A stretch of 27,025 nucleotides of DNA, taken from positions 1 through 27,025 of the IMG/VR virus record IMGVR_UViG_3300034120_001298; one strand, given 5' to 3'. The notes under the pieces are model-generated. The model saw only the letters and a program-made list of their open reading frames with translations, had not been told where the DNA came from and searched no databases. Of this stretch, positions 9,181 to 23,886 are shown piece by piece; position 1 is the first letter of the stretch; the number at the start of each line of letters is the position of its first letter. The DNA is from a virus. Both the position numbers and the translations under genes were made by a program.

Positions 9181-9771
9181 ATGACATTCACATCAAATAA
9201 TCACCCCAACGATAAGTTTTTTGCAGCACTGTTACTAGGCTGCATACTTTGCATAGCTGCTTTTTTTATATTACTTAGTAGCTGCAAAAGTGCCGAAAAG
9301 AAACAAGCTAAATTATACGGCAAGTTCGATAAACTGAAGCGCAAAGCAGATAGTGATAGTGTGCTAAAGGTAGTTCCGAGTAAATGGAGTTTGGCTAATT
9401 TCCCAGTAAAATTAAGCGGAACTAAAACCGTTTATTTGCCAAGTAAGAAAATAATAACACATGATACGGTAACTAAAATAAGTCAAGTTAATGACACCGT
9501 TTACTTGACAAAAACCATTACTAAGCATGTATATCAAGTTGACACACTACGCACAACCGACACAATACTAGATAATAGACCATTAACGCAATTACAGACC
9601 GATTACAGGGCTTTAGATGCTAAGTTGATACAATCTATCACTAAGGCGGAAATAGCTACAGAAACGAAAAATAAACAGCGTGGTAAATTGTTATGGTCAA
9701 TAGGATTGAACATACTTTTAATACTGCTGATAATTGCACACTTTTTGCGTAGATTTGGCATACTGGCATAG
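9181..9771 (+). CDS. Unimolecular spanin candidate (lipobox plus C-terminal membrane anchor)
   Basis: A 196-residue protein with a hydrophobic N-terminal stretch (about 13-33) ending in the lipobox LSSC (Cys35), a hydrophilic middle of about 130 residues rich in Lys, Thr and Asp, and a second membrane helix near the C-terminus (about 170-188, WSIGLNILLILLIIAHF) followed by Arg-Arg. A lipid anchor in the outer membrane with a transmembrane end in the inner membrane is the topology of u-spanins such as T1 gp11, which disrupt the outer membrane in the last step of lysis. The start at 9181 is chosen over 9154 because the promoter box overlaps the longer reading. Its TAG stop shares bases with the tRNA-like element. 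The role is inferred from topology and the lysis neighbourhood. Confidence 0.55.
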   Translation: MTFTSNNHPNDKFFAALLLGCILCIAAFFILLSSCKSAEKKQAKLYGKFDKLKRKADSDSVLKVVPSKWSLANFPVKLSGTKTVYLPSKKIITHDTVTKISQVNDTVYLTKTITKHVYQVDTLRTTDTILDNRPLTQLQTDYRALDAKLIQSITKAEIATETKNKQRGKLLWSIGLNILLILLIIAHFLRRFGILA

Positions 9772-9833
9772 TCAAGTCGTTTTAATGGTAAGACGGCACA
9801 TAGCTGATACGGGTTCAAATCCTGTCTTGACTA
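9770..9833 (+). tRNA. tRNA-like element with a shrunken anticodon arm
   Basis: The 64-base element has a perfect 7-pair acceptor stem (AGTCAAG 9770-9776 with CTTGACT 9826-9832), discriminator A, a D arm (GTTT 9779-9782 with AGAC 9791-9794, loop with GG), and a T arm (ACGGG 9809-9813, loop TTCAAAT, CCTGT 9821-9825). Only 14 bases (9795-9808) remain between D and T arms, where about 22-23 are normal. The best fold is four pairs (CGGC/GCTG, borrowing a D-stem base) around a 5-base ACATA loop, so no standard anticodon loop exists. CCA is not encoded. It is either a decayed tRNA or a tRNA mimic; I do not assign an amino acid. Confidence 0.6.
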
Positions 9834-20937: not shown

Positions 20938-20989
20938 AATAAGTTAGGTAATTTCAACAAAATACCCTATCTTAGCGGTACAATATTCA

Positions 20990-21104
20990 GAGGTAGTAGC
21001 CTGAGTATATGAAGACATTTTTAAAGCCCATAGGGGCTGAGGGAGGCAAGATTAACGCCCTGTTATTTGCCGCTACTACCCCTCAATCCCTATGGGTATT
21101 TTTT
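20990..21104 (+). ncRNA. Candidate pseudoknotted structured RNA with terminator-like 3' end
   Basis: Strand A (GGTAGTAGC, 20992-21000) pairs with A' (GCTACTACC, 21072-21080), nine pairs. Strand B (CCCATAGGG, 21027-21035, and GAGG, 21039-21042) pairs with B' (CCTC, 21081-21084, and CCCTATGGG, 21088-21096). B lies inside the A-A' loop and B' lies outside, so the fold is a pseudoknot, or the two are alternatives. A third hairpin (GGCAA 21045-21049 with TTGCC 21067-21071, inner TAAC/GTTA) sits directly against A'. B' is followed by six T at 21099-21104, so the B:B' form can terminate transcription. The gene at 21109 begins four bases later. It could be a riboswitch, attenuator or ribozyme; no known class is matched. 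Confidence 0.6.
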
Positions 21105-21108
21105 ATTT

Positions 21109-21348
21109 ATGACAGTTCACAACTGCTTACTAATTGACATTGAGCCACACCTTTACGGTTCATTCCTTTGCACCTTTTGCATAAAGCGTGATAAGTTTCA
21201 TTTACCAATACCTAGTAAAATGGCTGCTACATTAAGTACAGGGCAATACTATGATGTTGATTTTGACATGATGACCAACAACATAAACGGTATGCTTAGT
21301 TTGTCATTCAATTTCATTAACCCTACTAAAGATAATAGCCATGATTAA
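21109..21348 (+). CDS. Small protein behind the structured RNA, unknown function
   Basis: A 79-residue protein. The beginning TVHNCLLIDIEPHLYGSFLCTFC is followed by a beta-rich part (KFHLPIPSKMAATLSTGQYYDVDFD, GMLSLSFNF) and a short acidic end. The Met at 21109 is chosen because the longer frame to 21067 runs through the structured RNA and has no promoter or leader. Its start follows the T-run of the terminator-like stem by four bases, so its expression would depend on that structure. It overlaps the next gene by eight bases. No family is recognised. Confidence 0.55.
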   Translation: MTVHNCLLIDIEPHLYGSFLCTFCIKRDKFHLPIPSKMAATLSTGQYYDVDFDMMTNNINGMLSLSFNFINPTKDNSHD

Positions 21349-22042
21349 AGAATATTTTAGCCATGATTACGACCCTATTTCGGATATTAAAATGATGGTA
21401 ATGGTATCTGAATGGGGTGCAATTGGTTACGGCTTATATTGGCGTATAGTGGAACTTTTACACAAATCAGAAGATAATACTTTAGCATTTACACCTTTAA
21501 ACACTCTAGCAATTGCTAAGCAAATGAAAGTAGATGCTAAGCAAATCACATCATTTGTTGACGATTGTGTAAATGTTTTTGAGTTGTTTAAACGTGAAAA
21601 TGATAAGGTATTTTGTGAGCGTGTTTTTAGGAATATTGGCAAAAGAAAAGAAATATCAGAAGTCCGCAAAGCCGCTGGTAGCAAGGGCGGAGCAGCAAAA
21701 GCTAGCAACGTTGTAGCAATTGCTAAGCAAAATGTAGCAAAGGAAAAGAAAGTAAAGGAAATAAAAGAGAAAGAAAAGAAAGATATTATTATTGCCGATG
21801 CTGACGCATCTGAAAACTATAAAAGGTTTTTTGAATGGGCTTACACTAAAGGCAATGCACCTAGAGTGATGTCAATGGAAAAGCCAATAACAGCAGACGA
21901 ATACGATAAACTTTACACTGAGATTGGTGTAGATGCTATTTTTCAACAGGTACAGGCTATGGAAAATTATAAGGATTTGCACAAAAAAAACATATCTGCA
22001 TACTTGACCATTAAGAACTGGCACAACCGTAATAACAAATGA
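21341..22042 (+). CDS. DUF4373 (Lin1244/Lin1753-like) replication protein
   Basis: A 233-residue protein. The first 60 residues (YFSHDYDPISDIKMMVMV, GAIGYGLYWRIVELLHKS) match the N-terminal DUF4373 domain of phage replication proteins. A long charged linker follows (KEKKVKEIKEKEKK, about 140-152), then a DnaD-like helical end (EWAYTKGNAPR through ISAYLTIKNW). Members are thought to help load the helicase at the origin. The primase-helicase gene follows directly with an ATGA overlap, which fits that role. Confidence 0.78.
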   Translation: MIKEYFSHDYDPISDIKMMVMVSEWGAIGYGLYWRIVELLHKSEDNTLAFTPLNTLAIAKQMKVDAKQITSFVDDCVNVFELFKRENDKVFCERVFRNIGKRKEISEVRKAAGSKGGAAKASNVVAIAKQNVAKEKKVKEIKEKEKKDIIIADADASENYKRFFEWAYTKGNAPRVMSMEKPITADEYDKLYTEIGVDAIFQQVQAMENYKDLHKKNISAYLTIKNWHNRNNK

Positions 22043-23886
22043 TTTCAACATACACAATAGAGGCGATAAAACAGGCTGCAAACGTAGTAGAGGTGGTAGG
22101 AGATTATGTAAAGCTAAAAAAAAGCGGTACAGATTACGAAGCGTGCTGTCCTTTTCACAACGAAAAAAGCCCGTCATTTAAAGTTCACCCAGTAAAAGGA
22201 ATTTACAAATGTTTTGGATGTGGTACAAGTGGTGATGCAATCGAGTTTGTCATGAAGCACCAAAACAAAACTTACCCCGAGGCATTGGAAATTTTGGCAA
22301 AAAGGTACAATATTCCAATCGAGGAAGATAAGCCACAGCCCAAACGCACGTATAAACGCCCACAACAGCCCAAATTTGACCTTTCACCCCTTGCCCTTAC
22401 CTACTTTACCTCTCGTAAAATATCGGGGCAAATTTTGGCTGATTTTAAGGTATGCACAAAATTAGAGTGGATGCCTAAAACCAAATCAGAAGTTGAGGCG
22501 ATATGCTTTAACTATTTTCGTGAAGGTGAATTGATAAATGTAAAGTACAGGGCAAAGGATAAGGACTTTAAATTAGAAAAAGATGCGGAGTTGATTTTCT
22601 ACAACCTTGACAGCCTTAAAAGTGCAAAGTATGCGGTAATTGTTGAGGGTGAAATTGATGCTTTAAGCGTGGCGCAATCGGGGTTTAAAAATGCGGTGGT
22701 ATCAGTTCCAAACGGTGCAAATGTTACAGGGGCTATGAAATTGGAATACCTCGATAACTGCTACAAAGAATTTGAGAATATAAAGCAGATTGTTATTTTT
22801 ACCGATAATGATGAAGCAGGCAGACGCTTACGTGATGAATTAGGTAGACGGTTAGGGTATGACCGTTGCTACATGGTAACGGATTACAAAGGCTGCAAAG
22901 ATGCTAATGAGATACTTGTTAAACATGATGCAGATGCGGTACTAAATGCGATTACATCAGCTATAGAATTTCCAATAGAAGGTATAGTAAATGTAGATGA
23001 TATTTATAAAGATGTGCATAGCTTTTATGTGAACGGCTATCCAAACGGTTTTAAAAGTGGCATACCTAACTTTGACAACTTGCTACAGTTCATGTTAGGG
23101 CAATTTACAGTGATTACAGGAACGCCAGGAGCAGGGAAAAGCGAGTTTACAGACTACATAATTACTGAACTTGCTAGGGTACATGATTGGAGATTTGCGG
23201 TATGTAGTTTTGAAAATCAACCTGCAAGTCTACACGTTACTAAGCTAATGGAAAAACACGCTGGGAAGGCTTTTTCTAAAAGGTATAAAGAAACTGATAG
23301 GATAGATGTAACAGAGTATGAAGATGCTATTAACTTTGTATCTGATAGATTTAACTTTATTAACATAAACACCATAGATGTTACGCTTGATGGGATACTT
23401 GAAAAGTGTGCAGAATTGGTATTGAGGCGTGGCATAAGAGGCGTATTAATTGACCCTTGGAACTACATCGAATACAAGGCACAAAACGGACAAAGCGAAA
23501 CGAAATATGTAAGCGATGCACTTACCAAAATTAAAGCGTTTTGCATAAGATACAATGTACATTTATTTTTAATTGCCCACCCTACCAAGATGCCAAAGGT
23601 TAATGGTAAATATGAAGTTCCAAACCTTTACAGTATCTCAGGTAGTGCGCATTTCTACAACAAAGCAGATAACGGAATAGTAGTGTACAGAGATACCGAA
23701 ACCGTACAAATATATGTTCAAAAAGTGCGTTATAGTTGGTTGGGTAAAATAGGCATGGCAGAATTTAAGTATAACATTGATAGGCGCAAATATGAGGCAA
23801 TCGGAGAGCCTGACCCATTTATGAAGCAAATTCCCGATAACCCACATGCAGGTATAAATAAAAAAGTATCAGATATCCCATTTTAA
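22039..23886 (+). CDS. Bifunctional primase-helicase (CHC2 zinc finger, TOPRIM, DnaB-like ATPase)
   Basis: A 615-residue protein with three parts. A zinc-binding primase finger has Cys37, His40, Cys58 and Cys61 (CPFH and CFGC). A TOPRIM domain has Glu203 in VEGEIDAL and DND at 256-258. A RecA-like helicase domain has Walker A GTPGAGKS (361-368) and Walker B-like GVLIDPWN. It makes primers and unwinds DNA at the fork, as T7 gp4 does. It ends KKVSDIPF, resembling the tail of SSB, which is unusual for a helicase. It is coupled to the DUF4373 gene by ATGA. All motifs are intact. Confidence 0.9.
   Translation: MISTYTIEAIKQAANVVEVVGDYVKLKKSGTDYEACCPFHNEKSPSFKVHPVKGIYKCFGCGTSGDAIEFVMKHQNKTYPEALEILAKRYNIPIEEDKPQPKRTYKRPQQPKFDLSPLALTYFTSRKISGQILADFKVCTKLEWMPKTKSEVEAICFNYFREGELINVKYRAKDKDFKLEKDAELIFYNLDSLKSAKYAVIVEGEIDALSVAQSGFKNAVVSVPNGANVTGAMKLEYLDNCYKEFENIKQIVIFTDNDEAGRRLRDELGRRLGYDRCYMVTDYKGCKDANEILVKHDADAVLNAITSAIEFPIEGIVNVDDIYKDVHSFYVNGYPNGFKSGIPNFDNLLQFMLGQFTVITGTPGAGKSEFTDYIITELARVHDWRFAVCSFENQPASLHVTKLMEKHAGKAFSKRYKETDRIDVTEYEDAINFVSDRFNFININTIDVTLDGILEKCAELVLRRGIRGVLIDPWNYIEYKAQNGQSETKYVSDALTKIKAFCIRYNVHLFLIAHPTKMPKVNGKYEVPNLYSISGSAHFYNKADNGIVVYRDTETVQIYVQKVRYSWLGKIGMAEFKYNIDRRKYEAIGEPDPFMKQIPDNPHAGINKKVSDIPF

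Follow-up and report, generated by a model that had tools for sequence, protein, structure and literature searches.

A pseudoknotted leader RNA with an embedded terminator precedes replication genes in flavophages: a predicted transcription attenuator

The window analysed here, a virus record of 27,025 bases taken over its whole length, encodes a capsid protein closest to those of Flavobacterium columnare phages. On its plus strand, a 79-aa gene of no known family (21109-21348, +) overlaps the gene of a replication initiation protein (Lin1244_N; PHROG 2562; 21341-22042, +), which is followed by a DNA primase/helicase gene (22039-23886, +). The 79-aa protein has no match in Pfam, PHROGs or PADLOC, toxin families included; its PDB matches have E values of 0.26 or worse, and its AlphaFold2 model is poor (mean pLDDT 54). 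Directly upstream lies a predicted leader RNA of about 125 nt (20980-21104, +), delimited from its inferred start to the end of a T-run by promoter spacing, the T-run itself and the matches of a covariance model, R1. The start codon of the 79-aa gene follows 4 nt past the T-run. Elsewhere in the window, a 64-nt tRNA-like element (9770-9833, +) scores 35.8 bits against the Rfam tRNA model (gathering threshold 29) and receives no call from ARAGORN. Its acceptor, D and T arms are full, its anticodon arm is shrunk to about GC-ACAUA-GC, and it was not found in related contigs.

The promoter of the leader (20944-20975, +) is composed of a -33 box, TTAG (20944-20947), a 20-nt spacer and a -7 box, TATCTTAG (20968-20975). 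It is of the Flavobacterium type. Relatives carry TTTG-N20-TAATTTTG; the published consensus is TTTG/TANNTTTG (PMC6847099). The pattern TTnG-N20-TAnnTTnG stands directly 5′ of the first hairpin, P0, in every member of the window clade (described below) that has upstream sequence. Taken alone the motif is not rare, with five found in the window versus 2.2 expected, and the window promoter is supported because its place is fixed and two sequence versions are present. Judging from the -12 to -5 box placement in F. psychrophilum (PMC9723704), transcription would start at about 20980, and the RNA would therefore begin with P0. A competitor of the terminator stem suggested by the earlier sequence-only reading, CCCTAT at 20965-20970, has to be abandoned: it lies upstream of this predicted start, overlaps the -7 box and is not conserved in relatives.

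P0 pairs TATTCAG (20984-20990, +) with CTGAGTA (21001-21007) around a 10-nt loop, a plan shared with other phages. Inside this loop sits the 5′ strand of helix P1, GGTAGTAGC (20992-21000, +), whose partner strand, GCTACTACC, is found at 21072-21080 (+). A single-stranded linker covers 21010-21024 (+); its motif is ACATTT(TT)A, and other members have a AAAATATTATA-like form of it. The terminator stem P2 is formed by 21026-21042 (+; lower part 21026-21035, upper part 21038-21042) and 21081-21097 (+; upper part 21081-21085, lower part 21088-21097), with a core that pairs CCCATAGGG (21027-21035) with CCCTATGGG (21088-21096) and GAGG (21039-21042) with CCTC (21081-21084). Its competitor is Pa, an alternative local hairpin (AGCCC-ATAG-GGGCT, 21025-21038, +) that is present in the window clade and many other members and absent from L094, L099, L103 and L111. 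A further hairpin, P3 (GGCAA/TTGCC, 21045-21071, +), is missing from most members outside the window clade, and the T-run of the intrinsic terminator (21099-21104, +) is present in all aligned relatives. When the 115-nt core was dinucleotide-shuffled 3000 times, two interleaved perfect 9-mer pairs never arose. The single-strand fold has a z-score of -3.7, and its nested part is more stable than 200 of 200 shuffles. A candidate leader peptide, a 42-codon ORF (21009-21137, +), crosses the RNA in the window only and is lost in relatives.

The window clade comprises eight IMG/VR contigs (seven distinct sequences; L002 is identical to the window) with the 79-aa gene, and the RNA precedes this gene in all eight. 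The alignment and compensation test proposed in the sequence-only reading was carried out on these contigs. With P0, P1, P2 and P3 it yields 41 pairs and 94.8% of cells paired; 17 of the 41 pairs have changed on both sides, compared with 2-6 for slid structures, in which fewer than 48% of cells are paired. Compensating changes occur in P1 (5 of 9 pairs changed on both sides), in P2 (6 of 15, with 99% of cells paired) and in P3. A model-free listing of the helices permitted by the alignment returns P2, P1, upper P2, P0 and Pa. That reading had placed the interleaved stems (20992-21000/21072-21080 and 21027-21042/21081-21096), the hairpin at 21045-21071 and the six-T run correctly, and the helices covary, P3 within the clade; it had overlooked P0 and the promoter as well as the existence of a wider class. 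One exception is L008, with two P1 mismatches. At L008:322-445 the 5′ strand of P1 looks like that of one haplotype and the 3′ strand like that of another, as in a recombinant phage or an assembly chimera.

Matches of R1 are confined to the window clade. Those on the opposite strand are mirror images of the same hairpins, and the matches in genome contigs L034 and L035 were rejected because they lie antisense to a cas9-like gene. Pattern searches with the 5′ and core motifs of the clade returned the same contigs and chance matches only, and DNA and protein searches of named phages found neither the window RNA nor the 79-aa gene. The Rfam covariance search that had also been proposed matched no family: the window and the members scanned gave nothing for the RNA at gathering or permissive E-values, nor with the riboswitch models. 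A match to the DUF805b RNA of Rfam (RF02914, 52 bits) occurs in Flavobacterium phage morran9-1 at L083:499-533, shortly before a gene at 554; it is located elsewhere and is not the leader.

The order of the strands (P1, P2, P3, P1′, P2′) is that of HDV-like ribozymes, as the sequence-only reading had observed. This likeness of topology holds, but kinship with a self-cleaving ribozyme is scarcely credible. In HDV-like and theta ribozymes the catalytic C is the first position of J4/2 (PMC10879173). In all eight clade members P1′ adjoins the upper P2 strand with zero linker, leaving no J4/2 and no such C; P4 is likewise absent, and the Rfam HDV-like models do not match the window RNA. Moreover, a strand of the conserved P0 helix sits 5′ of the would-be cut, and most members do without P3.

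The wider class was reached by tracing gene order (primase/helicase) to Flavobacterium phage sniff9-2, in which an intergenic region precedes a small gene, a replication-type gene and a primase gene. This region contains a promoter (TTTG...TATATTTG), a P0 of TAATG/CATTA with a 10-nt loop, P1 as GTGAGACG/CGTCTCAC, P2 as AATCCTATTCA/TGAATGGGATT and seven T. P1 shows matched changes in morran (GTGAGAAG/CTTCTCAC) and in mumin and snusmum (GTGGAACG/CGTTCCAC), and a one-base deletion in P2 between sniff9-2 and morran9-1 is matched in both strands. Cellulophaga phages phi19:1 and phi10:1 carry GTACGAC/GTCGTAC. The common plan is a promoter, P0, a loop-to-strand P1, a knotted terminator P2 and a start codon, without overall sequence similarity; the purine strand of P1 lies in the loop in some members and downstream in others. 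Carriers include Flavobacterium phages (Lillamyvirus, Muminvirus, FCV-1), Cellulophaga phi19:1 and phi10:1, Olleya Harreka_1 and about 20 more IMG/VR contigs. A promoter of the Bacteroidota consensus is found directly upstream in nearly all of them. Through a motif conserved in the interval from terminator to small gene, 25 IMG/VR contigs were collected, some being records of the same named phages; the plan is present in all but L092, and the 5′ end is cut off in L096. A conserved hairpin, GGTAATCTTnAAACC, lies in this interval (L081:4085-4123, L087:2500-2542 and the 25 IMG/VR loci) and has matched changes of its own (CGGT/ACCG and AGGT/ACCT).

Several comparisons support this plan. In one wider group of 10 sequences P1 is 100% paired, with 6 of 8 pairs changed on both sides, and P2 has 6 of 11; another group of 9 sequences gives 48 two-sided cells versus 6-18 for slid structures. 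Models R2 and R3, built from the two wider groups with the window clade left out, each have a single window match at E ≤ 1, and both fall on the leader (R2, 20982-21108, +, E 0.17; R3, 20992-21106, +, E 0.14), each weak singly. R2 also matches FCV-1 at 35875-35978 (E 1.9e-12). Of 31 sequences, 25 pass an automatic descriptor, scoring 51-66, compared with 3 of 150 shuffles, none above 48. A genome-wide descriptor scan of both strands (promoter, P0, P1, P2 and T-run) marks one site in the 27-kb window, 20983-21097, with a score of 64.5. When flavophage and control sequence was shuffled and 1.16 Mb of it scanned on both strands, one match reached 50, the best score being 53.5. The best descriptor matches in FCV-1, phi19:1, mumin9-1 and Harreka lie before replication genes. 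A minus-strand match in mumin9-1 (28501-28374, score 53) looks like chance, and a stretch of Bacteroides crAss001 has no match at 50. Across 395 Bacteroidota genomes the RNA models gave one borderline match (E 0.0099), without good P0, P1 or P2.

The usual site of the leader is before the replication operon, and some genomes (sniff9-2, mumin, FCV-1, L099) have further copies before HNH endonuclease genes. In every named member a start codon follows the knotted terminator in the same direction within 6-46 nt. This constant position weighs against a stand-alone phage small RNA that base-pairs with host or phage mRNAs and for which the place before genes would be secondary. Such an RNA would have its own promoter and terminator and both ends folded, as seen here, yet the reading is quite unlikely: within the window the linker has no second complement that might serve as an antisense target, and P1 has none except its own partner.

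The genes behind the leader bear on another proposal, namely that the RNA is an abundant partner of the downstream small protein, in the style of AbiF or type III toxin-antitoxin systems, with the terminator setting the RNA:protein ratio. The layout resembles that of RCd22-abiF, in which one promoter is followed by a structured RNA of about 130 nt, a terminator and a gene expressed by read-through (PMC12373285). Within the window clade the RNA and the first small gene are conserved, and the replication gene behind them is divergent (33-79% identity). The same 79-aa gene stands behind the RNA in all eight contigs, though most of these were found through that gene. Across the class, however, the first downstream gene is not always homologous and the genes belong to unlike families. 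The small gene is non-homologous in Muminvirus, in Harreka an ORF intervenes between it and the leader, and HNH endonuclease genes stand behind some other copies. By the family searches described above, the 79-aa protein is not of the ToxN, CptN, TenpN or Abi_2 type, and the RNA is a single copy without tandem repeats and without a match to RF03085. A role as protein partner is therefore very unlikely. In Harreka a hairpin similar to GGTAATCTTnAAACC remains beside the small gene despite the intervening ORF.

The additional copies deserve mention in their own right. Second leaders at L081:2945-3033, L085:815-903, L082:40364-40455 and L099:7994-8087 lie directly before HNH (NUMOD4-type) endonuclease genes, and the P1 sequence is distinct in each. 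Copies at L108:11577-11669 and L099:5878-5973 precede other genes of unknown function, so that some phages have two or three leaders.

Another reading is action in trans, in the manner of P4 CI RNA or the C4 RNA of P1 and P7, whereby the P0 loop of a released RNA would pair with P1′ of another transcript, enforce termination and limit replication of the phage itself or of a relative. In P4, replication genes are stopped through pairing of CI RNA with a complementary leader segment (PMC4825925). The flavophage leader likewise stands ahead of replication genes, the loop of one of its hairpins has its complement farther downstream in the leader, and P1 varies among near relatives (Lillamy GTGAGACG, morran GTGAGAAG, mumin GTGGAACG). 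On the other hand, P1 evolves no faster than P2 (0.17 versus 0.19 differences per site in 18 chosen pairs), pairing in cis is expected to beat pairing in trans, no member scanned matches RF01695, and Mumin-type phages are without lysogeny genes (PMC7077304). Trans action is thus unlikely. A form of it in which the knotted terminators make up an RNA-only control circuit of flavophages is quite unlikely: a genome would have several leaders that differ in P1, and the RNA released from each would pair in trans with its counterpart leader on sister genomes, time or limit replication and set which phages can share a cell, as a strictly lytic counterpart of P4 CI RNA.

The reading favored here, and a probable one, is that the promoter-proximal leader RNA acts in cis as a transcription attenuator of the phage replication operon. 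By sequence and conservation, the layout runs from promoter through structure and intrinsic terminator to the coding start. RNA synthesis would begin at about 20980 and P0 would fold. Its loop would then pair with a strand made 70-80 nt later to give P1, an H-type pseudoknot; the next strand would pair back to form the terminator P2 beside P1, the T-run would release the RNA, and most RNA polymerase would stop at about 21104. Limited read-through would supply the small gene, the replication initiator and the primase/helicase. Stepwise folding predicts P0 and Pa first; once the RNA reaches 21080, the best nested fold is P1 with Pa and P3 (-30.0 kcal/mol), and when the last strand is added P2 takes over (-31.7 to -43.4 kcal/mol). 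In other members the linkers measure 6-10 nt from the P2 5′ strand to P1′ and 6-13 nt from P1′ to P2′, and H-type pseudoknots with linkers of this size are long enough for both helices to coexist. P1 and P2 are presumed to form together rather than in turn, though they could be alternatives.

Comparison among phages establishes the helices P0, P1 and P2 and the T-run, and likewise the constant position ahead of a start codon and the occurrence in many flavophages. Covariation demonstrates the existence of the helices, not regulated termination; actual termination at the T-run, and a signal that shifts the balance between termination and read-through, are inferred. Pa is the obvious candidate antiterminator and would fit the window clade, but it does not occur in all members. 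Because the 6-46 nt before the start codons leave no room for another promoter, downstream expression from the leader promoter would depend on read-through; the downstream genes can also be reached by transcripts that begin at genes farther upstream. The released RNA may itself be an active product. The earlier suggestion that an attenuator or small regulatory RNA controls the gene at 21109 is supported by the covarying pairings and by the recurrence in many phages of a promoter, knotted RNA, terminator and gene in this order.

Flavobacteriia phages abound in water and have fish pathogens among their hosts, and the control of their early genes is little known. The leader recurs before replication genes of unrelated flavophages, cultured ones included (FCV-1, lillamy, mumin, phi19:1, Harreka), and the proposed mechanism is testable at once in existing phage-host pairs. 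To our knowledge no shared RNA control element of flavophages was known earlier, and this leader would be the first. A terminator embedded in a pseudoknot and a loop helix that is freely exchangeable would also make a useful design for RNA switches.

Because no Rfam family matches and no description of this RNA was found in the open-access literature, the leader appears to constitute a new structural class of leader RNA, within the known kind of the transcription attenuator. Its likeness to HDV-like and theta ribozymes is limited to the interleaved strand order; the flavophage RNA is devoid of the catalytic core and ends in an intrinsic terminator. RCd22-abiF of Clostridioides difficile (RF03085) and type III toxin-antitoxin systems share with it the succession of promoter, structured RNA, terminator and read-through gene, whereas the flavophage RNA has another structure and precedes genes of many unrelated families, none of them a toxin family. 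The C4 antisense RNA of P1 and P7 is a phage RNA encoded in the leader it controls; its family (RF01695) has no match in any flavophage member scanned. The leader of the P4 alpha (replication) operon, with its CI RNA, likewise combines a structured leader, replication genes, complementary leader segments and premature termination, the last being predicted here. CI RNA arises by processing of the leader transcript and acts in trans in lysogeny, while the flavophage RNA carries an intrinsic terminator inside the knot, flavophages of known lifestyle are lytic, and neither sequence nor Rfam models link the two. Compared with pseudoknotted riboswitches and attenuators such as the preQ1 class, the flavophage RNA has a P1 that is free to vary and no known conserved core resembling a binding site, and it is so far confined to phages; what it shares with them is a 5′ leader in which a pseudoknot and a terminator are coupled.
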